Positions 5,153 through 28,727 of a DNA stretch of 31,052 nt are shown one piece after another. This stretch comes from a virus. Every line of letters begins with the position of its first letter. Positions within the stretch are counted from its first letter, which is position 1. The DNA is taken from the IMG/VR virus record IMGVR_UViG_3300027754_000307, positions 1 to 31,052 of that record. One strand, 5' to 3'. A program made the translations under genes and the position numbers. Under the pieces are notes generated by a model, which saw only the letters and a list, made by a program, of their open reading frames with translations, was not told where the DNA came from and did no database searches.

Positions 5153-5155
5153 GGG

Positions 5156-7351: not shown

Positions 7352-7393
7352 TAATTTTATGACCCCTAAAACCCCAGCAAAAGTATGTGTTTG

Positions 7394-7566: not shown

Positions 7567-7593
7567 TGCGACATCGTGCGACATTTTGCGACA
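7567..7593. promoter_or_regulatory. Arm-type integrase site candidates, right triplet
   Basis: TGCGACA at 7567-7573, 7577-7583 and 7587-7593, exactly 10 bp apart and so on one helical face. The last copy ends 6 bp before the integrase ATG, where the ribosome site would be. Integrase binding here could also repress its own gene. Confidence 0.65.
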
Positions 7594-7599
7594 TAAGCT

Positions 7600-13190: not shown

Positions 13191-13196
13191 AGATTA
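13177..13196. repeat. 20-bp exact repeat over a signal-peptide start, copy B
   Basis: Exact partner of 12484-12503, spanning the start of the 229-aa gene. The pair indicates duplication of the leader. Confidence 0.85.
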
Positions 13197-15623
13197 GTAG
13201 GCGTAAAGTCTGATTCCCAAAATCCAAATTGGAGATGTGTATCTATAACTGGCATTTCCAATTTCAACATTTAATTGAGCATTGGTCATTGCGGTAGTAA
13301 GCACATTGGTAAAATTAACAAGATTCAATCCACTATTAAAAGTGGTGGGTAAATCTTTTGATAAATCTATATTGGTTCCAGTTGTTAAATCATAGCCAAC
13401 AAAGGTCTGATGTTGGTATGCAATGGAAAATGTATTTGTGGCAACAATAATAAAGGAAATCACAAGATTCTTGTATGGAGTATAATCATCGGGGTCAATG
13501 CGCCACGGAACGCTAATATAGGTTCCATTTGTGGCCACTTGGAGGCAATGCAAATACCCACCTTGAGAAGCATTTGGAATTGCTTGCCATGATGTGTTAG
13601 CTGGCAATCCGCCGTAAGTATTGTATCCCGACAAGACTTGCTGAACTGGATAAAATTTAGATTTTGAAGAAATGGCAGATATGGGAATATTCGTCAACCC
13701 GCTTCCATCTCCCGCCAGATTGGTAAATGTAATAGACGATGCCGTCAGGTTGCCGCTGATAGATAGGTTAGTCGATACTGTCAGCGTTGGAGTGGTGAGT
13801 GAGGTAGCTGTAAGGAGTCCGTTGGTCTGGGTTACGCCGCCCACTTTGCCATTGCCGTTCACGTCCAGCGCGGTCTGTGCGCCGACGGCGAGGCCGGTGA
13901 GGGTTGGGCTGGCGTTGTTGGTAACGGCTGCTGCGATTGTTACAATCTGTCCTGCCGTTAGGTTGGTCACGCTGGACGCGGCAAAAGCGGTGGAGTTGCT
14001 ATAAGCCGCCGTTCCGAGGCCCGTTATTCCAGTCGATGGGATGTTGGTTAATCCAGTTCCGTTACCAGTAAATGTGCCGACGTAATTTTGATTGGCTGAT
14101 GGAACGGTTCCAACTGTTATGTGCGAGACGTTGCCATTGCCAATCAAGAAACGCCAAGTCGGATTGCCAGTTGTTGACGTGACATACCAGCGCAAGAGCA
14201 ACTGCGGGCTGTTGGTCAGATTCACGTTAAGATAAGGCGTGTTGGTCAAAGCGATTGCCAAGTTAACGGGAACTGCAATATCCGAACTGTAAGTATTGTC
14301 AGAAGAATAGCCCAGTTTTACTGACGTTCCGTTGGTATTGTAAAGCCACATTTCAGGGTGCGCCGTTATAGAACCGCCGCCAGTTATTTGGACGTAGGTG
14401 TAAAGGTTAATCGGAACGGACTGGATGTAGGAGATTGAATTAGTCTGGAGCCGTGCGGTAAAATACGTCCCGTTTGTGAACGATGAGATTGTATTAGTCT
14501 GGGATGTTGTGGGATTTACCAGCACCATGGTTGATGGCGTTCCAACATTGGTGATGGAAACCCCGGAAGAATTGGTTGAGAAATACAAATCAAAGTTGGC
14601 CGCCATTACGGATTGGACATATTCAGCCGTGACAAATTCATTGGCAAGCGGGTCGAGTCGGCTGGTCGATACATCGTAGGCGTGGTTGGTGACGTAAAGA
14701 TTATTTGCGATAAAGACGTTGCTTAACATTGTCGCCGAATTGGTGACGGTGACGGTTCCATTCAGATTGATTTTGCCGTCTCGGTATCCGCCAGAACCTG
14801 TTCCGGCGGCAATGTTAACATCTGAACCGCGTCCGTAAACAGTAGGGTCGCTGCTGTTGCCGGAACCATTTCCGGCTTGAATAGATAAATCGGCAGCGCT
14901 GTTTTGCGCTCCGTAGGATGTTCCAGTTGCAATGCTGACTGTTCCGCCGGAGCTATTGGGACCGGCGTTATCTCCACCGCCCGACTGAATGTTAATTCCG
15001 GCTCCATCAATACTGTTCCCTGTTTGATTAATATTAAGCGTTCCTGTTGAGTTAAAGAGAGTGCCCTGAATGTCGGCAAAATTCGTAACTGTGATGGACG
15101 CAAAGTTGGTGACTGTCGCGGCAGCGGGCGCGGACGCATTGATCTTAACCAGCGCGCCATTGGTGGTGAAAGTGATGTTGGTGCCGGGGGAAAGGATCAG
15201 TGAGAATCGGGCATCACTGGCAGCCTGGCTGTAGGCGATTGCCCCGTAATAAAGATTGGTGCTGATTACCGTGTAGGCGCTGGCATTCACATTCCCGGTG
15301 ACGTTGGTTCCGAACCAGTTGGTGAGCTGTCCGATGCTGCCGCCATTGGCGTCTTGCAGGATGACGCGGTAGCTGAACCCGTTGTACAGGTTGCTGACCG
15401 TGAGGGCGCCGGCCGTGCTGGTCTGGCGGGTGATCGTGGTGGGGAACACGATGTTGGTACCGACCAGACCGATGGGCTGGATGGGGGTGATCTGGACGCG
15501 CTTGACGGACTGAGGCGATCCGGTGAAGTCGGCGAAGTTGTAGGTGGCGTTGACTGTTTGGCTGGAGCAGTGAAGCCGGCCCGCCAGCAGAAGCAGCGCA
15601 ATGAGGAAACTCAGCTTTTTCAT
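13194..15623 (-). CDS. Large fibre-like protein with signal peptide (809 aa)
   Basis: A signal peptide (MKKLSFLIALLLLAGRLHC) precedes an Asn/Thr/Gly-rich protein. A beta-rich N-terminal domain (residues 25-130) leads to a repetitive fibre body and two G-x-G-x-G-L-T-N-I-P joints (about 520 and 636-644). The C-terminal domain of about 165 residues is encoded by AT-rich DNA beginning at the second joint. Size and composition fit a side or tail fibre that binds host surface. The five-copy AGTCAAGTTT element precedes its start. No chaperone gene is recognised nearby. Confidence 0.75.
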   Translation of the reverse strand: MKKLSFLIALLLLAGRLHCSSQTVNATYNFADFTGSPQSVKRVQITPIQPIGLVGTNIVFPTTITRQTSTAGALTVSNLYNGFSYRVILQDANGGSIGQLTNWFGTNVTGNVNASAYTVISTNLYYGAIAYSQAASDARFSLILSPGTNITFTTNGALVKINASAPAAATVTNFASITVTNFADIQGTLFNSTGTLNINQTGNSIDGAGINIQSGGGDNAGPNSSGGTVSIATGTSYGAQNSAADLSIQAGNGSGNSSDPTVYGRGSDVNIAAGTGSGGYRDGKINLNGTVTVTNSATMLSNVFIANNLYVTNHAYDVSTSRLDPLANEFVTAEYVQSVMAANFDLYFSTNSSGVSITNVGTPSTMVLVNPTTSQTNTISSFTNGTYFTARLQTNSISYIQSVPINLYTYVQITGGGSITAHPEMWLYNTNGTSVKLGYSSDNTYSSDIAVPVNLAIALTNTPYLNVNLTNSPQLLLRWYVTSTTGNPTWRFLIGNGNVSHITVGTVPSANQNYVGTFTGNGTGLTNIPSTGITGLGTAAYSNSTAFAASSVTNLTAGQIVTIAAAVTNNASPTLTGLAVGAQTALDVNGNGKVGGVTQTNGLLTATSLTTPTLTVSTNLSISGNLTASSITFTNLAGDGSGLTNIPISAISSKSKFYPVQQVLSGYNTYGGLPANTSWQAIPNASQGGYLHCLQVATNGTYISVPWRIDPDDYTPYKNLVISFIIVATNTFSIAYQHQTFVGYDLTTGTNIDLSKDLPTTFNSGLNLVNFTNVLTTAMTNAQLNVEIGNASYRYTSPIWILGIRLYAY
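13686..13719. repeat. 34-bp fibre joint repeat, copy B (GDGSGLTNI)
   Basis: Partner of copy A in the 809-aa gene. Sequence below it (13200-13680) is AT-rich, above it GC-rich. Confidence 0.8.
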
Positions 15624-15625: not shown

Positions 15626-15651
15626 TCTATAATGGGCGAGGAGTCAAGTTT
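15626..15651 (-). promoter_or_regulatory. Conserved start-site element, copy 1
   Basis: On the minus strand it reads AAACTTGACT, 10 bp, TATAGA, and ends 2 bp before the ATG of the 809-aa fibre. One of five AGTCAAGTTT (plus-strand) copies in the window; see the finding. Confidence 0.75.
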
Positions 15652-15676
15652 ACAAGGGGGAGGGCTGGGGTCGGGT

Positions 15677-15991
15677 TCAACCGTTAATGGGAGCAATCTT
15701 GTTGAGCTGCTCGCGGCGTTTGGAGCATCCGCCGCAGCCTTGAATGTTCGTTCCAGCCACGGAATCAATGGCCTTGGCAATGGGGTTGGCTATCTTGTGG
15801 ACGATGTCGCCCAGCCCTCGGACGCCATTCAACCTCTCGGGCGTGAATTGCGTGACGATGGCTTCCAGCGCGTTGTTCTCAATCAAAAGCCAGTCTCCTT
15901 GGACGTCGCCGGCCTCGATGAGGGCATCGGCGTATCCGGCGGGACGGGTGAGGCGGCAGTCGGCGATGTGCTGGAGGCTGATTTTTACCAT
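15677..15991 (-). CDS. Conserved phage tail-region protein (104 aa)
   Basis: The start M-V-K-I-S-L-Q-H-I-A-D-C-R-L-T-R-P-A-G-Y and the ending C-G-G-C-S-K-R-R-E-Q-L-N-K match a small protein type I have often seen in phage tail regions, with an unknown role. The C-x2-C followed by K-R-R may bind metal. It overlaps the 259-aa gene by 7 bp. About 50 bp separate it from the fibre gene, and that gap holds start-site element 1. Confidence 0.65.
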   Translation of the reverse strand: MVKISLQHIADCRLTRPAGYADALIEAGDVQGDWLLIENNALEAIVTQFTPERLNGVRGLGDIVHKIANPIAKAIDSVAGTNIQGCGGCSKRREQLNKIAPING

Positions 15992-16764
15992 GTGTTCGTG
16001 GGGATGGCGATGCGGCGCCAGTCATTGTTGCCCACGCTTATGTAGAGGTAGTTGGTGTCCGCACCAATTAGGCCGGCGCCGAGGCCGTAGGTGCTGGAGC
16101 CCGAGTTGGTGACGGTGGCGGGCACGAGCCGAACTTTCTCAAACTCGAAGGACTGGGACTTGAACTGGTTGAACCGGCCGTTTAGTTCAGGCGATGCAAG
16201 CGCGTAGACGGCGACCGATCCGGTGCTGGTTCCGCCCAGGCTGGACAGGTAGGTGCCGGTGTAGGTGTAATTGGTGTAGACGTTGGTGTAGGTGACGGAG
16301 TTGGTCCCGAAGACGTTGGTGAGGTAGTTGGTGAAGGTGTAGGCGGTGGCAAGGTTGGTGCGCGTCCATGGCAGCCATGTGGAGCCATCGGTGGACATAT
16401 AATTGGTGAAGGATTTATTGGTTCCAGTCAGCGATCCGGAGACATCGAACTGCCAGACGTTGGTGAACCGGCCGAAGTAATTAGATGTGCCGAAGGCGTA
16501 GCCGTTAGTGAGTAGCAGGGTGGTGAGGCCCGAGCTGCGGACAAAGCCCGTGGTCGCTGGGTTGGTGACGATGGCAAGGGTGTTGGAGAAGTTGACGCCC
16601 AGCTGGTTTGCCAGCCACAAGTCGTTGGCATTGATCTTGAGCCAGGTGGCGCGGCCAATGCGTTCGCCCGTGCCGGTGTCGTTGGTGGCGCCCACGTTGA
16701 TGAAGTTGAGTTGGGCGGATGCGGTGCAGGCCCACACGAGGAGGATAAGGATAGCGTTTTTCAT
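15985..16764 (-). CDS. Fibre protein with signal peptide and tail-attachment motif (259 aa)
   Basis: A signal peptide (MKNAILILLVWACTASA, cleavage before QL) is followed at once by F-I-N-V-G-A-T-N-D-T-G-T-G-E-R-I-G-R-A-T-W-L-K-I-N-A-N. This is a variant of the N-D-G-T-G-D-x-L-R-x-A-F-x-K-I-N-x-N motif typical of tail or baseplate fibre N-termini. An Asn/Thr/Tyr-rich fibre body follows, and the C-terminus ends Y-L-Y-I-S-V-G-N-N-D-W-R-R-I-A-I-P. The attachment motif argues for a virion protein, while the leader argues for export. Confidence 0.8.
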   Translation of the reverse strand: MKNAILILLVWACTASAQLNFINVGATNDTGTGERIGRATWLKINANDLWLANQLGVNFSNTLAIVTNPATTGFVRSSGLTTLLLTNGYAFGTSNYFGRFTNVWQFDVSGSLTGTNKSFTNYMSTDGSTWLPWTRTNLATAYTFTNYLTNVFGTNSVTYTNVYTNYTYTGTYLSSLGGTSTGSVAVYALASPELNGRFNQFKSQSFEFEKVRLVPATVTNSGSSTYGLGAGLIGADTNYLYISVGNNDWRRIAIPTNTW

Positions 16765-16766
16765 AA

Positions 16767-19142
16767 TCAGGGAATGAACAGGGAATCAGCCAGTCCCCAG
16801 CCGGCATCGGTGTCGGAGGAGATGGCGTTGGTGTTGAGGGAGTCCGCGTAATTGGTGGCCACTCCTGGCTGCGCGGTAAAGCTGGCGGCTGGCTGGCCGT
16901 AGTTCCAGACGGCGGAACAAGTGGTGGACCAATCCGATTGCCCTGGCATCTTATTCCATTGCGGGTATTGGTCGGTCAAGAACTGGAGGGCAGCGCCGGC
17001 GGGGGCATAGAGCCGGGCTTCGACGAGCGGGGTTGTCACGGGATCGCAATAGTCATGGGTGCAGGGCGAGCCGTCCTTGTTCTTGCGGGCGCAGGCGGGG
17101 TCGGGGGTGACTTCGTCAGAGACCTTGGCGTCCTGTGCATCAATCCAGAACCGGTCCGACATAGCCTGCTGGACGGCGGAATACCAATGCTCAGTGGGCA
17201 GGATGGACGGATAATCGCTGTAGAAGTTGGTGGTGGCGGCTGGCCACTTGCCAAGCTCGGGAGATCCGGGCGGCAGGATGGCGATGATGCCTGGCTTCTG
17301 GCCGATGGGTTTGACGTTGCCTTCCTGAGCGGACAGAGCGCCGTTGAAATCCACGGACCGGACGTAGTAACCCTTTGGCGAGAGATCCACAGAGCAGGTG
17401 GACGGTGCCCCGGGATAGCGCAGGGTGGCTGTGGGCTGGCAGTTGGCGTCCAAGGCGTACAGGGAGGACATCAGGGAGCAATCGCCGAAGGCTCCGCCGT
17501 GGTCGTCGATGGCGCACTGGTTGGGCTGGGGACCGCAGGGAGCGGTGTAGTTCTGGGAGGGCAGCGGCTCCTTGATCTCGGCCCACTTCGCCGCCCAGAA
17601 TGCCTCCTGATTATTCGCCACGAAAGCGCAGCCGTGGTTTACAAATGGAGGAAGGTTGTATTGATAGTTTTCTTTAAACCGGCTGAATGGAGCCCATCCA
17701 GCTCCTCTGCAACTTGTGTCCAACGCTCCATCTGTCCAATGAGTTGTGGTGGTTGGCAGGTAAGACGGAGCGTAATTGCCGTAAGTGTAACAAAGGCTTC
17801 CGCCAAAATCGCAACCAGCCCCTGAATCAATGTAATGATATTCTTGCTCGTAAAAATCAAACCAGCCCTTGTCGTAATACGCTGCCGGAAGCGGTGCGCC
17901 GTAAATAGAGCCATCGTAAATGGCAAGCAGGTTTGTATCGGCAGGTGTTTCGCAATAACCGTATCCAACTCCGCCATTTATTTCTTTTGGAATAACCATT
18001 GGAGCTACATTGCAGTTACCATCTGTGCGCCAAGGATAAACAGCATCGTCGGTCATATCCCACTGATTAAGAAGAACAAGAGCGTCTGCTTGGCAAGCAG
18101 CAGCCGTATATGCAGAATTTAATGAAATTGTAATATCAAATCCAAAAGATTGAATAACAACTTGTGGGTCTTCAACTATTGGGTCCATATCCTGCCTAGC
18201 AGTCCCTGTAACGCTTACTGTACAAGTTGTTTCAGTTAATGAAATGCTTCCAGTTAATGTAATTAAAGTAGAACCGTATCCCAACGGGTCGCACCGAAGC
18301 CGAGGAACTAAATCAAATAGGAAATTTTGAAAGTTTTCTGGAGTTCCTTGATAATAAATAATATCAAAGTTGGCTTCCCCTGTTTCGCAATCCCTTATAA
18401 AATAAGGAAAATTACAAGTAACAATTCCCCTATCTGCATTTACGGCGCAGATATTAATCATTTGAACCTTGTTAAAAGTTTGCGCTTCTTCTTCTGTTGT
18501 TGTTGTTCCTGCCGTTCTTAACAAATTTAAAGTGCCGCCAAAGCTAATATATGAAGGAGGGTCTGTAAGCGTGGTACGCGCGTCTATAAAACCATTAGAA
18601 TTAAAATTTCCAGAACAATCTAAAATTCCTCCAGCAGTTAAACTTTGACTGCTGGAGCATCCCATGCTGGCTTGACCAAGATAAGAAATAATGCCACTTG
18701 CTGGGTAAAAAGTTTTAACTTGCTCATTGTAAGACATGGAGTTGATTGCAAATCCTCTATATTTTGTATCAACTTTTGGGTTTGCAACATAATCAGAAAC
18801 AAATCCATACCTTCCTTGCCAGTATTTCTTTGCATGAACGGCTTTGAATCCTTTCTTTGCAGAGCAGAGATTAGACATCAGGGGGACGCCTGTGGCAAAA
18901 GTTTGGGCAGGAAATGGAGACGGCCACTCACCTTTTCCTGTGCCATTAGTGCCGCAAGATGGGATGCTGTATGGGTCTGGATAGCAATTAGCATAAGTAT
19001 CAGAACGATATATTGGAAGCGTTCCGTCTGCCAATGCAGCGCCGCACTCCGCATCCGGAGACGTCTGGCCTGTAAGCCACGCCTTGATATTGGTGTTATT
19101 GGCCCTTGTAGGGATAGGGCAGCAGTTAATATAGCTGCTCAT
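16767..19142 (-). CDS. Large Cys-rich tail-tip or adhesin protein (791 aa)
   Basis: No signal peptide. The protein is rich in Cys, Tyr, Trp and Gly (MSSYINCCPIPTRANNTNIK; many C-pairs such as SIPSCGTNG and GWAPFSR) and looks like a multi-domain beta protein. Position after tape measure and two tail genes and before fibres suggests a tail-tip, hub or receptor-binding protein. DNA for residues of roughly 80-500 (about 17640-18900) is clearly AT-rich, whereas both ends are GC-rich, so the middle looks replaced. No known domain can be named. Confidence 0.7.
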   Translation of the reverse strand: MSSYINCCPIPTRANNTNIKAWLTGQTSPDAECGAALADGTLPIYRSDTYANCYPDPYSIPSCGTNGTGKGEWPSPFPAQTFATGVPLMSNLCSAKKGFKAVHAKKYWQGRYGFVSDYVANPKVDTKYRGFAINSMSYNEQVKTFYPASGIISYLGQASMGCSSSQSLTAGGILDCSGNFNSNGFIDARTTLTDPPSYISFGGTLNLLRTAGTTTTEEEAQTFNKVQMINICAVNADRGIVTCNFPYFIRDCETGEANFDIIYYQGTPENFQNFLFDLVPRLRCDPLGYGSTLITLTGSISLTETTCTVSVTGTARQDMDPIVEDPQVVIQSFGFDITISLNSAYTAAACQADALVLLNQWDMTDDAVYPWRTDGNCNVAPMVIPKEINGGVGYGYCETPADTNLLAIYDGSIYGAPLPAAYYDKGWFDFYEQEYHYIDSGAGCDFGGSLCYTYGNYAPSYLPTTTTHWTDGALDTSCRGAGWAPFSRFKENYQYNLPPFVNHGCAFVANNQEAFWAAKWAEIKEPLPSQNYTAPCGPQPNQCAIDDHGGAFGDCSLMSSLYALDANCQPTATLRYPGAPSTCSVDLSPKGYYVRSVDFNGALSAQEGNVKPIGQKPGIIAILPPGSPELGKWPAATTNFYSDYPSILPTEHWYSAVQQAMSDRFWIDAQDAKVSDEVTPDPACARKNKDGSPCTHDYCDPVTTPLVEARLYAPAGAALQFLTDQYPQWNKMPGQSDWSTTCSAVWNYGQPAASFTAQPGVATNYADSLNTNAISSDTDAGWGLADSLFIP

Positions 19143-19145
19143 GCA

Positions 19146-19643
19146 CTAGATGGTGACAGTGGTTCCGCCCGCGCAGATGCTCGAGGGCGTTATAAATTCC
19201 CAATAGTTCCCATCGTTGTCAGGATCAAGGCTTCCGCTGTCGGCCGGCACGGTGGGGATGTAGGCGGGGTCGTCGGTTCCATCATTCAGAAGGGCGGGGA
19301 CATCTTGCAGGCAGACCCATTTGCCAGCCACGGCCTTGGTGGAGGTGCCTGAACATAAAATGCCCGCAGTGACAATGGAGTCCGATTCAAGGATTTTGAC
19401 CACCTGATTTTTTTTATAAGAATTAACAGTGGGGTCGCCGTAGAGCTTTTTGCCATCAACCCACATCCAGCCCATGTTTCCGGCTCCTCCGGCAGTGACT
19501 CCAAGAACCGTTCCCGATAGCGACTGGCTATTGATGCGGTAACCGACGCCAGGATTGATCTGGCAGCTCTTGGCGGATTCCAAGAGCTGATTCAGCCATG
19601 GCACCAAGGAGTGGCCGCCTGTCAGTTTAGCTGGCCACTTCAT
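19146..19643 (-). CDS. Tail-region structural protein (165 aa)
   Basis: The start is placed at 19643 (MKWPAKLTGGHSLVPWLNQL) because its ATG overlaps the previous TGA (TGATG); the longer frame intrudes into that gene. The N-terminal segment resembles small tail-region proteins that begin with W-P-x-K...W-L-N-x-L. The C-terminus ends in a Gly/Thr-rich strand. It probably belongs to the distal tail. Family unrecognised. Confidence 0.65.
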   Translation of the reverse strand: MKWPAKLTGGHSLVPWLNQLLESAKSCQINPGVGYRINSQSLSGTVLGVTAGGAGNMGWMWVDGKKLYGDPTVNSYKKNQVVKILESDSIVTAGILCSGTSTKAVAGKWVCLQDVPALLNDGTDDPAYIPTVPADSGSLDPDNDGNYWEFITPSSICAGGTTVTI

Positions 19644-20410
19644 CAGATAAAGTTGTAAAGATCGTATGACCAGAGTCCCCACTCAAACTCCTGCTGCAAA
19701 TTCCATTTGCCTCCGCCGACCTGTGAGATGGTGGGGTACTTCTTCATCCATCCGTATTTCATTGTCAGTCCGTCTGATCGGGTTGGGTTAGAGTTAGAAG
19801 GAAGATTAAATAAAAGGGTGCCCGGTGTGCCTTCCAAACTTTTTAGGCTTCCAGCGTAAATGATGCTGCCGACATTGGTAAGAGACTGGGCGATGGTATA
19901 ATCGCGTCGAACAACCCGAGTGTGGCGCAGGACAGGCGCGAATATCCGAACGGATTTCACACCTGCCAAACTTAGCTTAAGCAGGGTTTCAGCAGCTGCA
20001 ATCTGGGGGCCGGAACCGGTGAAAGCGGGGGTTGTGTTGGGGCTATCAATATAAGTTTGAAGCAGTTTTTTGTTGCCATCCGTGAGCAAATTGACGGTGG
20101 CGTTGTCAGAATCAAGGATGTCCTTTTCAACCTGGTTGGGCTGCAACTCCCAGACATCTGAAAGCGGGGTGTTGGGGTCGGACTGGCCGCCGGTCTGGGA
20201 ATAATCATTGGTGGCTTCTAGCCGGTAGCATCCGCCGGAAAGAGGGGTGACGGACCATTCGTATCCCTTTAGAACAAGGGAGTCTCCCCGCGCCTGGGCG
20301 CTGGCCTCGTCGGTAAAGTCCTCGACGTATTTTTCGCCATACCCGGTGGCTTTTTTCCAGAAAGAGCTTTTGGGCTGAACGACGCTGAGTTGTCCTGTTT
20401 TAATGGCCAT
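19643..20410 (-). CDS. Tail-region structural protein (255 aa)
   Basis: A mixed alpha/beta protein with N-terminal Y-G-E-K-Y-V-E-D-F-T-D, a middle helix set (VEKDILDSDNATVNLLTDGN) and an aromatic C-terminus (WNLQQEFEWGLWSYDLYNF). It starts 3 bp after the tape measure stop and is coupled to the next gene by TGATG. Gene order suggests a distal-tail or tail-tip role. Confidence 0.65.
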   Translation of the reverse strand: MAIKTGQLSVVQPKSSFWKKATGYGEKYVEDFTDEASAQARGDSLVLKGYEWSVTPLSGGCYRLEATNDYSQTGGQSDPNTPLSDVWELQPNQVEKDILDSDNATVNLLTDGNKKLLQTYIDSPNTTPAFTGSGPQIAAAETLLKLSLAGVKSVRIFAPVLRHTRVVRRDYTIAQSLTNVGSIIYAGSLKSLEGTPGTLLFNLPSNSNPTRSDGLTMKYGWMKKYPTISQVGGGKWNLQQEFEWGLWSYDLYNFI

Positions 20411-20413
20411 AAA

Positions 20414-21655
20414 TTAATTTCCGGGAATGCCAAACCCGTCTCCGCCGGAGGTTATTTTTTCAAGCAGGGTGTTGGTTTTCTCGGCGGCGCTAAGTTGTTT
20501 TTTTGCTATCTGTTCAATGGCCGATGCTCCTGAATTGGCTCCAAGAAAGTTTCCCACACTGGTCAGCGAATCCATGGAGCGGAGCTGCGCCTTGGGGGCA
20601 GCAGCGGTTGGAATGGCTCCAATGGTTTCTGGTTTTTTTCTGTCTGCTATCTTTTTGGCAAGCGCATCTGCGGAGGCTTTTTTTGCTGCGTCTTGTTGGT
20701 TGGCAGTTTCTTGGACGGCCTGACCGACGCCATCCATAAGAGGGGTTGAGGTGATTGCTGCATTGCCAAGGTATTTCTTCTTATTGGCATCCGCCTGCTC
20801 TTGCGTGATTTTACCTTCTTTGACTTTTCTGTCTTGTTGGTCCGTGTATTTTTGCGCGCGCTTTTCAGCATCAGCTTTTTCAGAAGAACTAGCAGACCCC
20901 ATTATGTTTCCAAGGGCTTCGCCTATTGCTGCCTGAGATTGTCCGATGTGGTCGGCAAGATAAGAAAAAGCATTGGCTACTGCTAAAATGGCGGGAGCAA
21001 TTCCAGCCATCAGCCGGATTCCAAGCTGGTCAAACTGGTCTCCAATGGCATCCAGTTGCCCGATGGTTTCCTCGGACATGACCGAACCGGAGGCGGTGGC
21101 CGCGGCGCGCCCTTCATCTATTCCGTCGATAAAAGCGGGGACAAGGATTCCAGCTCCCCTTCCGCCTACCTGTTTGAAAGCGGATTTGATTTCATCATTG
21201 TTTCCCAGCTTTTTGAATTGGCCGGCGATGTTGTCCAGGATCTCGCTGGTGCCCTTGGTCTTCAGGTCGGACATTCCGACGCCCAGTTTTTGGAAAGCGC
21301 CCTGAGCGGCAGCGTTTCCACCCAAGGCTGCTAAGCGCGCGGCTCCCAGTTTTTCAAAGACTTGAGTCAGGTCATCGACGCTCCCGCCGTTCTGCTTAAG
21401 GACGTACTGCATTTGCTGCAAGTAATCAGTCCCCACATGGAGCCGGTCTGCCAGATCGGTGATGTGCCCGGCGTAATCAATCGTCTTTTTGGTTAGCGCC
21501 ACGATGGCGCCCACCGAGAAGGCGCCGGCAATGGCTGACTTGATGCCGCCCAGCCCAGAGCTTGCAAACTTGCTGGCCTCGGACTGGGCACGGTTCAGAC
21601 CGCGGGAAAACCCACTGCCATCCAAGGAGATTTCACCCACCAGTTTAAGCGCCAC
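20414..21655 (-). CDS. Tail tape measure protein (413 aa)
   Basis: It begins with the tape-measure pattern L-V-G-E-I-S-L-D-G-S-G-F-S-R-G-L-N-R-A-Q-S-E-A, has a hydrophobic segment (residues about 36-54), long helices with alternating Ala/Gln, a second hydrophobic region (about 215-235) and a heptad-like C-terminus (AIEQIAKKQLSAAEKTNTLLEKI). Position after tail tube and assembly genes fits. At 413 residues it is short; the usual length rule of about 0.15 nm per residue implies a tail near 60 nm. The start overlaps the assembly-protein gene by 11 bp. Confidence 0.85.
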   Translation of the reverse strand: MALKLVGEISLDGSGFSRGLNRAQSEASKFASSGLGGIKSAIAGAFSVGAIVALTKKTIDYAGHITDLADRLHVGTDYLQQMQYVLKQNGGSVDDLTQVFEKLGAARLAALGGNAAAQGAFQKLGVGMSDLKTKGTSEILDNIAGQFKKLGNNDEIKSAFKQVGGRGAGILVPAFIDGIDEGRAAATASGSVMSEETIGQLDAIGDQFDQLGIRLMAGIAPAILAVANAFSYLADHIGQSQAAIGEALGNIMGSASSSEKADAEKRAQKYTDQQDRKVKEGKITQEQADANKKKYLGNAAITSTPLMDGVGQAVQETANQQDAAKKASADALAKKIADRKKPETIGAIPTAAAPKAQLRSMDSLTSVGNFLGANSGASAIEQIAKKQLSAAEKTNTLLEKITSGGDGFGIPGN

Positions 21656-22208
21656 TTGAGACCTCCTGTTTTTCGATGATGGCTATTTCTTCCGGAGTCA
21701 TCAACTTGATGGCGCCTTCGTTTTCGGCGTATTTGAAGTAATCGGCAAAGGCCTTGGAAAGGGGCTGAGTATCTAGGTCGTGCTGGGTCCAGCCGAGCTT
21801 GGAGCGGAGGACCACCTCCACGCACTGGGCCCAGTGGGCTCCGGAGCTTCCGCCGGACCGCTCTTCCCAGAACTTGGGGACAATGGACTGCGCCTCGATA
21901 TACTCTTTGAAAAGGATTGCCTTCTCGTTCAAGTCAAAGACTCCAATCTTGGCGCCCCATTCGTGGATGGATTCATCCCGGCCATCGGATTCAATGAAGT
22001 CTGCAAACTCGGCAGGTTTCATGGAGCAGCACAGCACGCCCAAGATGAGATCGTCCCGGGTGGGGGTGCATTCCAGCTCAGAAACAAAGGCGCACTCAAA
22101 CCGCCGGAGCAGCTTGTAGTGCGACAATGAAAAAGGCCGGAGCCGCAGGCCCAGAATCTGCCACGGCTCCGGCATTGTCGCCGTGAAATAATCAGCGGCG
22201 GGTTTCAT
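21645..22208 (-). CDS. Tail assembly chaperone-like protein (187 aa)
   Basis: It lies between tail tube and tape measure genes, the position of lambda gpG/gpT-type chaperones. The content fits: M-P-E-P-W-Q-I-L-G-L-R-L-R-P-F-S-L-S-H at the start, a Cys pair, an acidic middle, and a helical C-terminus (MTPEEIAIIEKQEVS). No obvious slippery heptamer with a second overlapping frame was found, so frameshifting is not claimed. Confidence 0.7.
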   Translation of the reverse strand: MKPAADYFTATMPEPWQILGLRLRPFSLSHYKLLRRFECAFVSELECTPTRDDLILGVLCCSMKPAEFADFIESDGRDESIHEWGAKIGVFDLNEKAILFKEYIEAQSIVPKFWEERSGGSSGAHWAQCVEVVLRSKLGWTQHDLDTQPLSKAFADYFKYAENEGAIKLMTPEEIAIIEKQEVSSGA

Positions 22209-22217
22209 GTTGTCAGA

Positions 22218-22637
22218 TCAGGCAGGCGTGACGGTGATGCCGGCGTGCTGTTCAAGCGTGAGGGTGACCTTGGAGGCATCCGCATTGCTCTTGGCCGTTT
22301 TGATTCCAACCACCAGCCAGTGGCTGTCCACCAGCTCCGGCATGGAGGCGCAGGCGGAGATGTTGATGACGGTCCGCATCAGGCCCAGCAGGGTGGTTTG
22401 AGCCGCTACGGCAAGCGCGGCAGTCGTGCTTGAGGGGATCACTTCCAGCGTGGCCTTCTTGTGCAGGTTGTAGAACACGCGGGTGGACAAGTCGCCCGAA
22501 GCGTTCTTGATCTGAGCCTCTTCGTGGCCGGGTTCGTAGTCCGCGGACTGGAGGAGGTTGCCGGAGCCGATGCCTGTGATTCCGTCCGTTCCGGTAAAGC
22601 CGAAATTGACAAAAGCGCCTGATTGGGTTGCTGCCAT
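22218..22637 (-). CDS. Major tail tube protein candidate (139 aa)
   Basis: The N-terminus (QSGAFVNFGFTGTDGITGIG) and a body with beta strands separated by one helix (LHKKATLEVIPSS...LMRTVINISAC...KVTLTLEQHAGITV) match the tail-tube fold layout. It is the last neck/tail gene before the assembly protein. Small for a tube protein but plausible for a short siphovirus tail. Confidence 0.7.
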   Translation of the reverse strand: MAATQSGAFVNFGFTGTDGITGIGSGNLLQSADYEPGHEEAQIKNASGDLSTRVFYNLHKKATLEVIPSSTTAALAVAAQTTLLGLMRTVINISACASMPELVDSHWLVVGIKTAKSNADASKVTLTLEQHAGITVTPA

Positions 22638-22656
22638 AATTTAGTGGGGGATGGGG

Positions 22657-23019
22657 TTAGGGTTCAGTTGCGGTGACGTTGACGACGCACGAAGCGGTGT
22701 TGGCGCGCCAGTAAAGCGTTGCGGCGGAATCCGGAGGGAAGAAGCAGCCGCGGCCCGCTGTCAGCTTGCAAAAGATGTGAGTGCCGTCATTGGCTGTGGC
22801 GAGCTGGATGTAGTTGGTGCCATCCGTGTTCTTCACCATAAGCAGGTTGAAGCTGGACAGGGCGTCCAATGGAATGGCCGTCCAGGCTGTGGTCACAACC
22901 CAGCTCTTGGCGTAGTAGTCCGTTCCTGCAAGGTCCTCAGACAGCGACAGCGTGTCGGACACGCGGAGGTTGTTTTTTGTGACTGCAAAAGTGATGTTTG
23001 TCTGCTTCTCGCCGGCCAT
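22657..23019 (-). CDS. Virion-region beta protein (120 aa)
   Basis: An all-beta protein (TNITFAVTKNNLRVSDTLSLSEDL...SCVVNVTATEP) with a Gly-Arg-Gly-Cys turn. It is preceded by start-site element 2, whose TAGA touches the ATG. Placement between tail terminator and tail tube suggests a minor or decorating tail protein. Family unrecognised. Confidence 0.65.
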   Translation of the reverse strand: MAGEKQTNITFAVTKNNLRVSDTLSLSEDLAGTDYYAKSWVVTTAWTAIPLDALSSFNLLMVKNTDGTNYIQLATANDGTHIFCKLTAGRGCFFPPDSAATLYWRANTASCVVNVTATEP

Positions 23020-23045
23020 TCTATTAAGTGGTTGAAGTCAAGTTT
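23020..23045 (-). promoter_or_regulatory. Conserved start-site element, copy 2
   Basis: AAACTTGACT, 10 bp, AATAGA, directly abutting the ATG of the 120-aa gene, in a 33-bp noncoding gap. Confidence 0.75.
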
Positions 23046-23052
23046 CTCGGGC

Positions 23053-23514
23053 TTAAGCAGGCCTTGAATAAATGCGGAACTTAAAGCCGGAGCCGTGGAA
23101 GAACTCGGTATGCTCGCGCATGGGCGAACGGCCGGAGACCTTGTAGATGTAGATGCCGGAGGCGATTGAAGAGATGTCCTGCTCGATGGAGGCGGACATC
23201 ATGGCCAGATTGAGGACCGCGGCCGCGGCCCTGTGATCCTCCAGCGAGGAGGTGATGGAATCACCATCCACCTGGCTCCGGATGGGGGTGCGTATTTCGA
23301 CGATGCAGTTTCCCCAGAAGTTGCCAGTGTAAAGGGGCTCCTCCTCAAGATCGCCAGCAACGTAGACCAAGAGGGTTTGGCCGTCCTTGATGCCTTCACT
23401 TTCTCCAGCGAAAATGCGGTAGGTGCCGTCGTCGGCCTTCAAGGAATCCGGAAACGGCTGGGTGATGAGGTAAGCCGCCAGCGCGGTCTCTAAGGTTTCG
23501 GGATGCTCTGCCAT
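23053..23514 (-). CDS. Tail terminator-like neck protein (153 aa)
   Basis: Layout fits the gpU/minor-tail terminator type. An opening helix (ETLETALAAYLITQ) is followed by beta strands with L-L-V-Y-V-A-G-D-L-E-E-E-P-L, V-E-I-R-T-P-I-R-S and a final strand-rich segment (YIYKVSGRSPMRE...FRIYSRP). Position after the gp10/Z-like gene supports this. The start codon overlaps start-site element 3. Confidence 0.7.
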   Translation of the reverse strand: MAEHPETLETALAAYLITQPFPDSLKADDGTYRIFAGESEGIKDGQTLLVYVAGDLEEEPLYTGNFWGNCIVEIRTPIRSQVDGDSITSSLEDHRAAAAVLNLAMMSASIEQDISSIASGIYIYKVSGRSPMREHTEFFHGSGFKFRIYSRPA

Positions 23515-23539
23515 CTATAAGACGGCCAGAGTCAAGTTT
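23514..23539 (-). promoter_or_regulatory. Conserved start-site element, copy 3
   Basis: AAACTTGACT, 10 bp, TATAGA, with the final A of TATAGA being the A of the start ATG of the tail terminator-like gene. Its far end touches the previous gene's stop codon. Confidence 0.75.
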
Positions 23540-24231
23540 TACGCGGTCCGGATTCCCTTTGCTCTGGCAGACTCTTTCATTTTTCGCTCCATGTACTGCT
23601 TCATGGATGCGGTCTCCATGTCGATAGCCCTCTGAAGCGCCGGCTGCGCGATGGCTCCCATGGGGTCGGGCGTGGTAGACAGTTTAGAGAATGACGAGTT
23701 GATAATCTTGGCGATGCTGCGTCCGCCGGTGGCCAGGCTGTAGGATCCGAGCGGCTTTTTGATGGCGCTGGCTTCTCGGTCGGAGGGGGCCGCCTTGCTT
23801 TTGTTTTCCGCCACCGGTGCAAAGGCTTTGATGGCTGGTATCCAACCGGACGCCATGAAAGCCCTGGCGTCTTGGCGGCGCTTGATGAACCCCTTGACGG
23901 CCTCTTTCATGGCGGACCCGAAGAGACCCGGCTTGCCAGTTTTGCCGCGTCTCCAGTTTATGAGCAGGGCGGCAATGGGGACGCCTTCCGAGTTTTTAGC
24001 TAGGGACTTGCGGTTTTTACCTTTGGCCGTGGTGCGCGTGGTGTGGATGAGAGCCGATAGATCGTCTTTGATTTTGGACTTTTCAGGGCGGAACGTCTCG
24101 CGGCAGGCGGCGCGGGCTATAAAATAGGCCTTGGTATTGACGATGACATCAAAGTCCTTGCGACTTTGAGCGGCGTATTGCCTGATGGTGCGGTCAAATT
24201 CCCGCGTATTAATCTGGAAAGTGGCTGCCAT
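23539..24231 (-). CDS. HK97 gp10/lambda Z-like neck protein (230 aa)
   Basis: The N-terminal helix (REFDRTIRQYAAQSRKDFDVIVNTKAYFIARAA) and basic body fit tail-completion proteins of the gp10/gpZ group, which join the tail to the head. The long Lys/Arg-rich insert (residues about 70-150) makes it larger than HK97 gp10. Overlaps the previous gene by one base. Confidence 0.7.
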   Translation of the reverse strand: MAATFQINTREFDRTIRQYAAQSRKDFDVIVNTKAYFIARAACRETFRPEKSKIKDDLSALIHTTRTTAKGKNRKSLAKNSEGVPIAALLINWRRGKTGKPGLFGSAMKEAVKGFIKRRQDARAFMASGWIPAIKAFAPVAENKSKAAPSDREASAIKKPLGSYSLATGGRSIAKIINSSFSKLSTTPDPMGAIAQPALQRAIDMETASMKQYMERKMKESARAKGIRTA

Positions 24232-24563
24232 CAGAGGCCTTGGGCGGCAGCATTGGCGGTAATCCGCACTTGGGCGCCACCCGGGGCGACGAAGACATCA
24301 TTGATCCGATAGGATTTGCCGGTCTGGCCGGGGTACTTAAAGACCTGATTGCTGGTGGGCAGCACTGTGAAATCGGAAGCCAAGCAAATAAGAGACAGGT
24401 CTGAATCCATGGAGAGACCGCCGATGGAGTTATTCAGGCCTATACGGGCGCTGGCGGGCAGGGCGCGCACAAGCCGTCCGCCATACCATACGGACGGACA
24501 ATCGCTTCCAAGCTCGTCCTGAAGCGATTGCAGGCCGTCCGCATGGTCGGCGTAGGCGTTCAT
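24231..24563 (-). CDS. Head-tail joining protein, gpFII-like (110 aa)
   Basis: A beta-rich protein with D-C-P-S-V-W-Y-G-G-R near the start and a C-terminal K-S-Y-R-I-N-D-V-F-V-A-P-G-G-A-Q-V-R-I-T. The latter resembles stopper/head-closure proteins, in which a loop reaches into the portal channel. Gene order (after capsid, before gp10/Z) agrees. Single-base overlaps on both sides. Confidence 0.65.
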   Translation of the reverse strand: MNAYADHADGLQSLQDELGSDCPSVWYGGRLVRALPASARIGLNNSIGGLSMDSDLSLICLASDFTVLPTSNQVFKYPGQTGKSYRINDVFVAPGGAQVRITANAAAQGL

Positions 24564-24778
24564 TATCTGCGCTTGCGAGCCGGCAGGGCCGACTCCTTAG
24601 TTTCTGTAAGAATGGGCGGAACGGATTCGGGGGACGGAAGGGTTGCGCCTGCCGCAGCGATTTTGGCGCGCCCGGTGCCGATGGCCGAATAGCCGTCCGC
24701 TTCTTTGACATCCAGCACTTCGCCCGCGGCGCGTGAGACGCCAGCGATGAAGCATGGATAAGTGATTTCGATGAGCAT
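24563..24778 (-). CDS. Small post-capsid protein (71 aa)
   Basis: A compact beta start (IEITYPCFIAGVSRAAGEVLDVKEADGYSAIGTGRAKI) resembles small phage proteins with G-E-V-x-D-V-x-x-x-x-A-x-x-L-I-x-x-G-x-A. A Pro/Lys/Arg-rich tail follows. Its ATG lies 3 bp past the U-tract of the post-capsid terminator, so no room for a Shine-Dalgarno remains outside the hairpin. Confidence 0.65.
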   Translation of the reverse strand: MLIEITYPCFIAGVSRAAGEVLDVKEADGYSAIGTGRAKIAAAGATLPSPESVPPILTETKESALPARKRR

Positions 24779-24781
24779 TGT

Positions 24782-24817
24782 AAAAAAGGGCCGGAGCAGG
24801 TTGCCCCACTCCGGCCC
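24782..24817 (-). terminator. Intrinsic terminator after the capsid gene
   Basis: On the minus strand: GGGCCGGAG, 12-nt loop, CTCCGGCCC, then TTTTTT. A 9-bp GC-rich perfect stem with a six-U tract is a strong intrinsic terminator. It would cap most transcripts after the capsid gene and let a minority read into the neck and tail genes, giving high capsid to tail ratios. Confidence 0.9.
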
Positions 24818-24832
24818 GTTGACGTTTCCGAA

Positions 24833-26629
24833 TTACGCTGCGCCGGAGTCCGTGGAGGCGGCAAAAGATCCCGCGTTACGCACGCCGATGTCGGCAAGCA
24901 TATTGACGGTGATCTTGATCTGGTTCTTGTCGGCCAGCGAGTACGGGTCAACCGTGACATCCATCCCGATCCAGTCGGCGATGATGAGGTCGTTGAAGTT
25001 GCCGAAGATCACGCGGTTGGTCGGAACCTGGAGCGTGGCCATGGCTTGATACCCGTTGACCTGGTTGTTTTCCCAGATGAAGGACGGGAACGTGCTGCCG
25101 ATTTTCGCGGCCGCTTTGAGCTTGGCGCGCGTGTTGGGCGTGGTGACGTAGGCGGGGTTTCCGCGCAACGCATTCGCATTGGCGACCTGAGTTTCCAAAT
25201 CCACAATCTTGGCGTAGGTCGCCGCGGTTGTGAACGTGGTGGTGCCGATGCCCGAGGTGCTGAGGATGCCGACCGGGGATGAGCCGCTGCCGTCGCCGGC
25301 CAGCGCCGCACGATCCAGCTCGATGGCGAGGATGCGGGCAAAGTCCTCACGGACCAGCGATTCCACGTCCACGCTCGACTGGGCGAGCAACTGCTTGCTG
25401 ATGGCGGAGACCGCCGAGAGGCGGTGGGGGCTCAGGGCCACCTGACCGAACGTCAGGTTGGAAGCCGTGGTCTGTCCGTTTTCAGCGACCCAGTACGCCG
25501 TCGCGCCGCCGCTCTGGCTGGGGATGGCGATGTTGCCTTGGAGACCGGACAGGGTGCGGGCACCCAGCTCCTTGGTCACCGTCATGTTGCGGAGCAGCTC
25601 GATGAGGGAGCCGCCCAGCACGTTGGTCTGCACGCTGTATTTGCCCGTGCTGTTGGTGGTCGCCGTCAGGTCGCGCTTGCTGGAGACCTCGGACGGGATG
25701 AAGAAACCGCTGGTGTCGCGGCCCGTCAGTTTGGCCATGGCTTCCGAAGCGGCGCGCTCAAGGCCGGCGTCTTTCCAGTTGCCAGTGACGTGAGCGCGGA
25801 TCGCCTTGATGAGGCTGTAGTCCCGCACCTCAGCAACGCTCATCCCGATTTCCGAGCTGGTGTTGATGGGCTTGGCGGCCAACTGGGTTTCGGTGATGTG
25901 GCGATAGAAGTCCTCGGTGGACTTGCCTTCGCGGATGAAAGCCTGGGCGGCTTCCACGGCGTTGAACTTGCGGCCGACTTCCAAGATTTCGTTGACGCGC
26001 TTGAGCTGGCTGTTGCCGGCTTCCGCACGGATTTTGGCCTCGTCGATGACGGGCATAGAGGGTGTTTCCATATAAGTTTTTGTTGTTAAAGAGACTTCTG
26101 CGGTTGGTTGTTTTTCGGTCTCGGGAGCATTGCGCCCGACGCCGACGGTTTCATCTGCGGGAATTGGAACGGTAGAGGCCTCAAAAGCCTTGAAAGCGAA
26201 CCGGCGAGTTTCCAGCCCGTCGATCATTTCAGACTTGAGCAGCTTGGTGGTCTGGTATCCGAAACTTACCAAGCTCCGGATTCCATCCTTCATATCGCCC
26301 AAAATTTCAGTTCCACGCTCAGAGCGGGACAGCTTGACCACGCCGCGGCCAATGCAATCAGGACCGACCGATACGCTTCCGCGCTTGAAGGCTCCCGCCT
26401 GGTCGTCGGGATTGTGATTCACCAGAAAGGCTCCGCCGGCGTTGAGGCGTGAAAGGTCGGCATTGCCGTTGCCATGGTCGAGGACTTCCATGTAGGTCTT
26501 GCCGGTAGTGTAATCGGTGCGAGCCACGGGCTTTTCGGACGAGAAGGCGATGGCAATCTCGCGCTCCTCGGGCGTGATGGCCGAGGCGTCCACTTCCATT
26601 TCCCGGTATAGCATCTTGGGGGCGCTCAT
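24833..26629 (-). CDS. Fused prohead protease and HK97-fold major capsid protein
   Basis: Residues 1-165 match the S78-type prohead protease, with likely catalytic His72 (GAFLVNHN) and Ser122 (RSLVSFGY) and the closing A-S-T-V-P-I-P-A-D-E-T-V-G-V-G-R. A helical scaffold-like delta region (about 185-265) follows. From about 270 on the HK97 capsid fold appears (GSLIELLRNMTVTKELGARTL...YWVAENGQTTASNLTFGQVALSPHRLS...DGSGSSPVGIL). Maturation presumably cuts between protease and capsid parts. Start-site element 4 abuts its ATG. Confidence 0.92.
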   Translation of the reverse strand: MSAPKMLYREMEVDASAITPEEREIAIAFSSEKPVARTDYTTGKTYMEVLDHGNGNADLSRLNAGGAFLVNHNPDDQAGAFKRGSVSVGPDCIGRGVVKLSRSERGTEILGDMKDGIRSLVSFGYQTTKLLKSEMIDGLETRRFAFKAFEASTVPIPADETVGVGRNAPETEKQPTAEVSLTTKTYMETPSMPVIDEAKIRAEAGNSQLKRVNEILEVGRKFNAVEAAQAFIREGKSTEDFYRHITETQLAAKPINTSSEIGMSVAEVRDYSLIKAIRAHVTGNWKDAGLERAASEAMAKLTGRDTSGFFIPSEVSSKRDLTATTNSTGKYSVQTNVLGGSLIELLRNMTVTKELGARTLSGLQGNIAIPSQSGGATAYWVAENGQTTASNLTFGQVALSPHRLSAVSAISKQLLAQSSVDVESLVREDFARILAIELDRAALAGDGSGSSPVGILSTSGIGTTTFTTAATYAKIVDLETQVANANALRGNPAYVTTPNTRAKLKAAAKIGSTFPSFIWENNQVNGYQAMATLQVPTNRVIFGNFNDLIIADWIGMDVTVDPYSLADKNQIKITVNMLADIGVRNAGSFAASTDSGAA

Positions 26630-26655
26630 TCTATCAAGGCTTGGAAGTCAAGTTT
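26630..26655 (-). promoter_or_regulatory. Conserved start-site element, copy 4
   Basis: AAACTTGACT, 10 bp, GATAGA, abutting the capsid ATG. Here the outer box lies inside the last codons of the portal gene (NLTSKP), so it is kept although it also encodes protein. Confidence 0.75.
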
Positions 26656-28115
26656 TCGGGTTTCTTTTTGTCTGGAATGACGGTTTGTCCGGGCATAGCC
26701 ACCGGCTCCAGACCGTACTGTTTCATCATGGCCTGCTCTTCTTTGAGCGATTCAAACACGTCCTCGATGTCGCGGCCGGTCTCGGAGATGTTTTCCGTGC
26801 GCGTTTCGAGCAGGTTATTGACTGCAAGGATGGTGGCCTCGATGTCGGATTTGGGGTCTACCCATCCCCAGCGGCGGGGGCACCAGGTGTCTGCGGCAAA
26901 CTTCGACAGCTTGGAGAATGGCAGGTTGATCTGTCCGGACACGATGGCCAGCGGAAGCCATTCACGGAAGACGGGGCGGAAAAAGGAATCAATCATCCAG
27001 TTCTGGATTTGCTTGAACTCTTCCCGATCTTCCAGCACGCCGGCGCGGATGGAGGAGTAGTTGACGCCTTCAAGGTCGTTCGCCAGGGAATTGTAAGAAA
27101 CGCCCAGTCCGGAGGCCACGCCGCGGAGGGCGGTCTTGATGTACTCGCTGTAAGAGGTGCCAGGATAAGTGGGGTTGTTCTGGATGGGTTCCACGCCCAT
27201 GGGGAGATCGGTCCACATTCCCGGTTCTGCCTCGCGCTCCTGTGAGCCGTCTTGCTGCATCTCTCCATTGAATCCCTCGGGGGTGGCCTTCTTGAACCAG
27301 CCACCTTGGCAGGCGGCGGCGCGGTAGGCTACCAGTGCGGCCTCTTCCATCCCGGACAACATCTTCAGCCGGAGCATGGAGGGGGCCAGCCAGGGGATGC
27401 CGACGGATTGCAAGCTGCGGTCGGGCCGGTAGATGTGGATGATCTCATCGGCAGAATAGCGCACACGGTTGAAACCGTTGGCGCTGTAAAGGTCGCCGGG
27501 GTGCCGGGTCCAAAGCCAATAGGCCACCGGCTTCTTCCACTCATCCAGCTCCACGCCCATCCGGATTTCGTTCCCATTAGCGGTGGCTGGGATGTTGTGG
27601 TAGACGTCGAGGTAATCTATTTCAATCAGTTGAAGCGAAAACTTGAACGGGTTATTGGCTCCCTTAACTTTGCGGACAAGGATGCCGCCATCCCGAGCGG
27701 TGGAACGCAGGATGATGCGGGCCATTTCATGCAGTGAAAGCTGCCCTGTGACGCCGCAGTTCTCGCGCTGACTCCAAATATCCCATGCTTCTTCCACACG
27801 GGAGTTGGCGCCCTTGTCCAGGACGCCGCCGGGGTCGCGGACTTTCATCTGCAATTTGACGCCGGTGGATCCGAGGACGTTGTTCTCAATAATTTTGAGG
27901 TAGCGCTGGGAATAGGGGTCATCCCGTTCCAATTGGCGGCAGCGGGACCGGAGCTTGACGACATCGTTTCTAGCCTCGGTGTCAGCGCTGGTGTTGGTTG
28001 TCAGCCAATCGTTGGTGATGCGGTTGAGCGCTGCCCCAGCATAATTGCGCTGGGCCATGGGAGAAGATCCCTTGAACGCCTTGATGGCATTCCCTATCCG
28101 GGTGGATAATTTCAT
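26634..28115 (-). CDS. Portal protein, lambda gpB-like (493 aa)
   Basis: The start is 28115 (MKLSTRIGNAIKAFKGSSPM), whose ATG overlaps the previous stop; the longer frame is not protein-like. Portal features: R-D-D-P-Y-S-Q-R-Y-L-K-I-I-E-N-N-V-L-G-S-T-G-V-K-L-Q, E-I-D-Y-L-D, V-A-Y-W-L-W-T-R-H-P-G-D, A-D-E-I-I-H-I-Y-R-P-D-R and G-I-P-W-L-A-P-S-M-L-R-L. It forms the dodecameric channel for DNA packaging and recruits terminase. Length is close to the family norm. Confidence 0.92.
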   Translation of the reverse strand: MKLSTRIGNAIKAFKGSSPMAQRNYAGAALNRITNDWLTTNTSADTEARNDVVKLRSRCRQLERDDPYSQRYLKIIENNVLGSTGVKLQMKVRDPGGVLDKGANSRVEEAWDIWSQRENCGVTGQLSLHEMARIILRSTARDGGILVRKVKGANNPFKFSLQLIEIDYLDVYHNIPATANGNEIRMGVELDEWKKPVAYWLWTRHPGDLYSANGFNRVRYSADEIIHIYRPDRSLQSVGIPWLAPSMLRLKMLSGMEEAALVAYRAAACQGGWFKKATPEGFNGEMQQDGSQEREAEPGMWTDLPMGVEPIQNNPTYPGTSYSEYIKTALRGVASGLGVSYNSLANDLEGVNYSSIRAGVLEDREEFKQIQNWMIDSFFRPVFREWLPLAIVSGQINLPFSKLSKFAADTWCPRRWGWVDPKSDIEATILAVNNLLETRTENISETGRDIEDVFESLKEEQAMMKQYGLEPVAMPGQTVIPDKKKPENLTSKP

Positions 28116-28684
28116 CGTGGAAAGGTGAACCGCGTGAAGATGTTGTTGGTGGAAGACCGGCCTTGTGCAGCCATTTCGGCAGCTTCTTCTTTCAGGACAA
28201 TCGTCTTGTAACGGTCGCGGAGCTTGAGCAGTTGCTCGGGCATGAGCCGGTTCAGGGTGGTGCCATCCACAATAGAGTTCAGGATGGAAGACGAAGCCCG
28301 GCCCTCGATGACCAATTCCACGGCATCCAGCGTCCGGCGCGCCTGCGTGCGAGTGTCCGCACCCGGGTCCAGCGTCTGGAGGTTCACCGTTACGATGATT
28401 TTGCCACGCCATACCTGAATACGCTTGCCAGTGACGATGGCGTAACCAGCCACCGAATACTCTCCGGGTATCAGGTTGGCGCTGTCGGTGGTCAAAATGG
28501 ACAGCAGATGACTGGAACCCGAGGCGCTGGAGACGACATCCAGAGAGGAGAGGCCGTTCCCGCGGAAGCAGTAGGTCATCGAATACCCATCCGCTGGCCT
28601 GTAATCATCCAGGTATCTAGTCCAAGAAAGCGAGTCGCCGGCGGCAAAGGTTAGAGGCTCGGTTGTGGGTATTGGTTGCGCCAT
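28112..28684 (-). CDS. gpW-like head joining protein with N-terminal beta domain (190 aa)
   Basis: In lambda a short gpW lies between terminase and portal. This gene holds that position but is about three times longer. The C-terminal part (residues about 105-190) has gpW-like content (T-R-T-Q-A-R-R-T-L-D-A-V-E-x-V-I...M-P-E-Q-L-L-K-L-R-D-R-Y). The N-terminal 100 residues are a beta domain (EPLTFAAGDSLSWTRYLDDY...PGEYSVAGYAIVTGKR), possibly an Ig-like surface domain. It couples to the portal gene by ATGA. Confidence 0.75.
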   Translation of the reverse strand: MAQPIPTTEPLTFAAGDSLSWTRYLDDYRPADGYSMTYCFRGNGLSSLDVVSSASGSSHLLSILTTDSANLIPGEYSVAGYAIVTGKRIQVWRGKIIVTVNLQTLDPGADTRTQARRTLDAVELVIEGRASSSILNSIVDGTTLNRLMPEQLLKLRDRYKTIVLKEEAAEMAAQGRSSTNNIFTRFTFPR

Positions 28685-28689
28685 TAAAA

Positions 28690-28705
28690 TAAGCGTGTCC
28701 GCTTA
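28690..28705. repeat. 6-bp hairpin upstream of gpW-like gene
   Basis: TAAGCG, TGTC, CGCTTA. It lies between start-site element 5 and the ATG, where the other copies of the element have their TATAGA box. Confidence 0.55.
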
Positions 28706-28717
28706 CATAAAGGGGCA

Positions 28718-28727
28718 AGTCAAGTTT
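28718..28727 (-). promoter_or_regulatory. Conserved start-site element, copy 5 (outer box only)
   Basis: AAACTTGACT follows the TerL stop by 2 bp. The TATAGA box is replaced by TGTAAG and the ATG is about 34 bp away, so the copy is diverged. Confidence 0.65.

Follow-up and report, generated by a model that had tools for sequence, protein, structure and literature searches.

A start-anchored box precedes selected late genes in two related phage sets that include viruses of Verrucomicrobiota

The window analysed here, a stretch of viral DNA of 31,052 nucleotides, carries five copies of an element that is a real, conserved late-gene start box, characterized by its sequence, position, direction, conservation and late-only distribution. 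Our preferred reading, which is tentative and to which we give somewhat less than an even chance, is that the element acts as a late promoter specific to these phages, from which mRNAs with a short leader or none would be made. In a wider sense, it is quite possible that the box represents an undescribed late-gene start code in one terminase lineage of Verrucomicrobiota phages, in which one TTGAC(A/T) box, placed 13-17 nt ahead of the start codon and accompanied by neither a -10 element nor a Shine-Dalgarno sequence, would be read by a phage factor and would yield near-leaderless or leaderless mRNAs gene by gene. The literature searches made gave no paper dealing with the control of late genes in phages of Verrucomicrobiota.

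When the letters of the window were searched, the decamer AGTCAAGTTT was found in five exact copies (15642, 23036, 23530, 26646 and 28718), all on the plus strand and none on the minus strand, and thus in the same sense relative to the genes, as originally predicted. In gene sense, i.e. on the minus strand, it reads AAACTTGACT and lies upstream of five late genes. In four copies a TCTAT(A/T/C) box, which is (T/A/G)ATAGA in gene sense, was confirmed 16 nt from the decamer (15626, 23020, 23514 and 26630), with gaps to the ATG of 2, 0, a one-base overlap and 0, respectively, exactly as claimed. The remaining copy, AAACTTGACT-N10-TGTAAG (28702..28727), has TGTAAG in the place of this partner and is displaced, with 33 nt between TTGACT and the ATG (28684) of the head-tail joining protein gene (190 aa, 28112..28684; PHROG 5774, E = 1.2e-28), the first gene behind it. 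The second copy, AAACTTGACT-N10-GATAGA (26630..26655), directly precedes the ATG (26629) of the protease-capsid fusion, or major head protein, gene (598 aa, 24833..26629; Phage_capsid, E = 1.9e-44; PHROG 617, E = 4e-129). The third, AAACTTGACT-N10-TATAGA (23514..23539), shares its final base with the ATG (23514) of a 153-aa gene (23053..23514), and the fourth, AAACTTGACT-N10-AATAGA (23020..23045), precedes a 120-aa gene (22657..23019, ATG 23019) that is 76-77% identical in the relatives L007 and L096; neither gene could be assigned to a family. The fifth, AAACTTGACT-N10-TATAGA (15626..15651), precedes a repeat-rich fibre-like ORF of 809 aa (13194..15623, ATG 15623). All these elements and genes are on the minus strand, and their identities agree with the capsid, neck and fibre targets proposed from the sequence. 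All copies had been placed between a stop codon and the next start codon, which is right except for the 26646 copy; this one lies within the last portal codons, a location that had itself been pointed out.

According to the original prediction, well under one copy would be expected in random sequence. This is correct for the AGTCAAGTTT word (0.02-0.12 per simulated sequence) but some 10-mer with at least five dispersed copies occurred in 6/180 Markov simulations. The copy count is therefore weaker evidence than first thought, and the element was judged real because of its placement at junctions and its conservation in relatives. A search of Rfam gave no match.

The proposed check was whether related phages have the element at corresponding junctions; they carry it there in diverged form, so that the original prediction was not refuted. 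In a first set of phages (set 1), whose capsid proteins are 36-74% identical, the boxes at the same junctions have just the core TTGACT in common. L006 is near-identical to the window phage and keeps four copies of the element. L007 (capsid 74% and terminase 55% identical) has no CTTGACT; it contains ATTGACTTCTCCCGGTCT in four copies, which lie at precisely the same four junctions as window copies, with 17 identical bases in all four, and the exact 17-mer was found, besides L007, only as one coding match in an unrelated contig. In L096, which belongs to the 39-kb contig G321 (portal 43% and, on the same contig, terminase 76% identical), TTGACT is present at five of five junctions and before a 110-aa gene, and it precedes six late starts in L160 and five in L161. 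The portal-capsid junction is boxed in L006, L007 and G321/L096, and L160 has a box before its capsid ORF; the junction of the 153-aa gene is boxed in L007, G321, L160 and L161, and that of the 120-aa gene in L007 and G321. Homologs of the fibre-like gene are preceded by a box in G321 and L160, and a displaced copy is also kept at the head-tail joining junction of L007 (54 nt).

The consensus first derived, AAACTTGACT-N10-(T/A/G)ATAGA, therefore describes the window phage but is too narrow for its relatives, which conserve TTGAC(T/A) at a near-fixed distance to the start codon. The TATAGA partner is confined to the window phage, and the relatives have another partner or none (variants of the partner are TATAGA, CTCCCGGTCTGT or an A-rich sequence). 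TTGACT lay 13-19 nt from the start codon at 26 of 29 set 1 sites and 25, 33 and 54 nt from it at the others, in a collection that was selected for TTGACT, with starts chosen from ORFs and homology and with orthologous junctions that are not independent. The three displaced copies retain both the box and the partner position, and the conservation after the box amounts to 5.5 bits when the sites are anchored on the box versus 2.3 bits when they are anchored on the start codon.

A second set of relatives (set 2) was found by a terminase search, with ~50% identity in the terminase; several of its loci are near-duplicates of one another, and it includes L157, a prophage in a genome of the order Limisphaerales. 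In these phages TTGAC(A/T, rarely C/G) stands 13-17 nt before many late starts, namely those of the small terminase, 81-aa, capsid and 236-aa genes and of the successive 258-, 136- and 130-aa genes. The conserved part consists only of TTGACW followed by a C-rich stretch, and TATAGA is absent. In several neighbouring pairs, coordinate arithmetic shows the upstream gene to end on the TGA within the box. Behind the 130-aa gene, the late region includes a tRNA-Met (CAT) gene (L157:2958-3033 and L233:17849-17924), and the minus strands of L165+ and L232/L235/L233 contain a candidate ORF of ~220-266 codons with TTGACG 14 nt before its ATG.

A region on the plus strand of the window (7370..8691), in which a tRNA-Glu-like candidate attP (7370-7445) adjoins a tyrosine integrase gene (7600-8691), served as host marker. 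The 3' half of the tRNA-Glu-like sequence appears intact, and an exact search of GTDB genomes with 41 nt of it matched 39 stretches; wherever a title gives a taxon it is Verrucomicrobiota, in most cases subdivision 3/Limisphaerales, while a few titles read just 'bacterium'. The tRNA-Glu-like sequence is probably attP and would link the window phage to Verrucomicrobiota subdivision 3. Because of this match a Verrucomicrobiota host is proposed for the window phage, and the relationship of L007, L096, L160, L161 and most of set 2 suggests the same for them. At least some phages of the two related sets infect Verrucomicrobiota bacteria.

The frequency of the box was compared between groups using the same ORF caller and start rule, a box being counted 12-19 nt before a candidate start. 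Boxed ORFs amounted to 22/65 (34%) in set 1 and 36/189 (19%) in set 2, compared with 30/1277 (2.3%) in control phages, 6/615 (1.0%) in the host and 2/99 in other Limisphaerales prophages. Fisher tests on these counts gave p-values of ~1e-5 to 1e-19, which overstate the case because the sites are related and the box had been found in these phages before counting. None of the called ORFs of the early regions is boxed (0/23 in the window, 0/29 in G321), and by this count the box is restricted to late genes. A host-wide signal was rejected, with 1131 occurrences of TTGACT-N13-17-ATG versus 997 of the reversed control in 20 Limisphaerales genomes. Host ORFs showed no box peak at -26..-19, and an apparent TTGAC peak at -36 to -43 traces largely to what seems to be a single coding sequence recurring among the tRNA-fetched loci. 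With the exception of L157, no box was seen in host-order prophages with distant capsid proteins, and a capsid-protein scan of genome contigs gave no match. A TTTGAAACA repeat in L020 was considered and judged not convincing.

The box matches the host sigma70 -35 hexamer TTGAC(A/G) found upstream of Limisphaerales 16S genes. There, a TA-rich element follows the hexamer after ~17 bp, whereas at the phage boxes that position is coding sequence. A sigma70 promoter (-35, 16-18 bp spacer, -10) is therefore excluded, because its -10 would lie in the ORF: the position falls at or inside the start codon, where no TATAAT-like hexamer is present, and the boxes were not among the promoter-scan matches. 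The original prediction had reached the same view, and also stands in that the sites lack Shine-Dalgarno sequences, as no purine-rich core complementary to CCUCC was seen 5-10 nt before the starts.

Under the late-promoter reading, the directional TTGAC(T/A) box would place the transcription start on the start codon or a few bases ahead of it, and the resulting leaderless or short-leader mRNAs would serve selected late genes (capsid, neck, tail, fibre). The box would be read not by the ordinary host sigma70 holoenzyme but by something else, presumably an initiation factor encoded or modified by the phage, with the TATAGA partner 10 nt downstream of the box in the window phage and a different or no partner in the relatives. 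Genes past the terminator that lack a box would be transcribed at a lower level. The transcriptional action, the transcription start site and the factor are inferred.

The intrinsic terminator in question (24782..24817, minus strand), with a 13-bp stem followed by T6, is located directly 3' of the capsid gene and is the best terminator-like site of the late region. With a box in front and this terminator behind, the capsid gene would be insulated, and strong intrinsic terminators stand behind the boxed capsid genes of nine phages from both sets (window, L007, G321, L160, L157, L229, L232, L233 and L235). This resembles phage T7, whose capsid gene lies between the phi10 promoter and a terminator; T7 encodes its own polymerase, and the late promoters of T4 depend on a phage-encoded sigma factor. 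The gene behind the capsid terminator has no box despite a free gap, and neither has the 139-aa gene despite a free leader of 19 nt in the window and 44 nt in L007. Such unboxed genes with gaps, the displaced intact copies and the box-anchored conservation support the promoter reading, as do the terminators, the diverged boxes at shared junctions in L007, L096/G321, L160 and L161, the lack of boxed early ORFs, and the recurrence of TTGAC(A/T) 13-17 nt ahead of late starts in set 2. In G321 a minus-strand block separates the capsid and 110-aa genes, and in L160 a 433-codon minus-strand ORF occupies the equivalent place. The divergent start codons are only 41 nt (G321) and 47 nt (L160) apart, and the junction consists mostly of two back-to-back boxes, so that the promoter of each side would be the box itself or be hidden in the opposite gene.

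Several observations count against a promoter. The narrow range of box-to-start distances would suit a ribosome signal, and a box precedes each of several successive set 2 genes. The box-to-start stretch of set 2 is GC-rich (33.5% AT versus 38.2% for the genomes), and hence offers no visible melting region. The Pfam/PHROG matches listed for the early ORFs of the window and G321, genomes that are possibly incomplete, include neither an RNA polymerase nor a sigma factor, and in a search for a shared regulator all that the two early regions had in common was a metallophosphoesterase and some short proteins of weak similarity.

Some of these points would favour a translation-initiation element, in which UUGAC(U/A) 13-17 nt before the start would recruit or position the ribosome, directly or via a phage RNA-binding protein, in hosts where use of Shine-Dalgarno sequences may be scarce. 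We consider this unlikely, although the tight spacing in both sets and the absence of a promoter-like AT stretch in set 2 speak for it, as does the finding that in six set 2 phages 13/13 genes with gaps of 13-24 nt are boxed versus 7/35 of those overlapping or lying at most 3 nt from the previous stop. G321 encodes a KH-domain protein, which would suit such a mechanism, and some Verrucomicrobia are reported to be Shine-Dalgarno-scarce (PMC10783764). Against it, displaced copies remain intact, genes with long free leaders such as the 139-aa gene lack the box, and early phage genes and host genes lack it as well. Leaders of the T7 gene 10 type enhance translation by pairing with 16S rRNA; however, the host 16S 3' end has kept CCTCC, and an examination of two complete and two partial 16S genes revealed nothing that would pair specifically with the box (AGTCAA or TGTCAA), only the common GACGTCAAGTC stretch. 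No RNA structure was found at the box. A KhpA/KhpB-type KH domain protein, possibly an RNA-binding regulator, is encoded at L158:7454-8095 (E = 5.6e-8).

Less probable still is a silencer in the manner of stoperators, i.e. an asymmetric, transcription-oriented site at which a phage repressor would keep late genes off in the prophage. The box is asymmetric, oriented and located at junctions, it is uniform in any one phage but drifts from phage to phage, and the phages look temperate; moreover, TTGACA-N-CC of set 2 resembles the reverse complement of what we take to be the L5 stoperator. Cluster A stoperators are likewise asymmetric and oriented with transcription, and their consensus drifts between related phages (PMC6550527). 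However, they are repressor-bound at 20-30 sites genome-wide, including the early promoter, and are not described as start-anchored (PMC6550527), whereas the box is start-anchored, confined to late genes and absent from the called early ORFs of the window and G321. A silencer would not be expected to keep a set distance from the start codon, and no repressor was identified in these phages. An inert boundary sequence maintained by inter-module recombination or intragenome copying, without regulatory function, is very improbable, since copies more alike within one phage than between phages, such as the four of L007, would fit it but strand, late-only distribution and start distance in two sets with diverged flanks would be left unexplained.

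Of the promoter, translation and regulator-site readings offered at the outset, the evidence thus leans to a late promoter without proving it. The nearest described pattern is the start-associated SAS/ESAS of cluster K mycobacteriophages, a short, asymmetric, oriented repeat tied to starts in one phage group and nearly absent from the host, whose function is unproven (PMC3203893). Yet SAS (GGGATAGGAGCCC) has an AGGAG core pairing with 16S, stands 3-7 bp from the start and precedes non-structural genes (PMC3203893), whereas the box has no Shine-Dalgarno core, stands 13-17 nt from the start and precedes late genes; with sequence, distance and gene class all different, the two are not identical. 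The late promoters of phage AR9, AACA-N6-TA/G, are also short motifs unlike sigma70 before many late genes, with leaders of 26-491 nt (PMC5312081), but AR9 encodes its own polymerase and none was recognised among the matches listed for the window and G321. By analogy, the box appears to work most like a late promoter, without assignment to a known family.

A start-anchored late box in two phage sets provides a motif for late-gene finding, start-codon correction and the grouping of uncultivated phages, and it points to a phage transcription or translation factor. Other features were noted in these genomes. In L096, the minus-strand block between the capsid and 110-aa genes (4106-7598) encodes a TPR protein, an FkbM methyltransferase and a glycosyltransferase, possibly a virion glycosylation cassette. 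The window itself contains three tandem paralogous genes of ~100 aa each that are 51-58% identical (157-1075), five imperfect 45-bp repeats (3364-3649) in a Cys-rich ORF (3272-3784) and, within another ORF, a tandem 12-bp unit (GTGACTTGTCCG) in about six copies (9537-9608).
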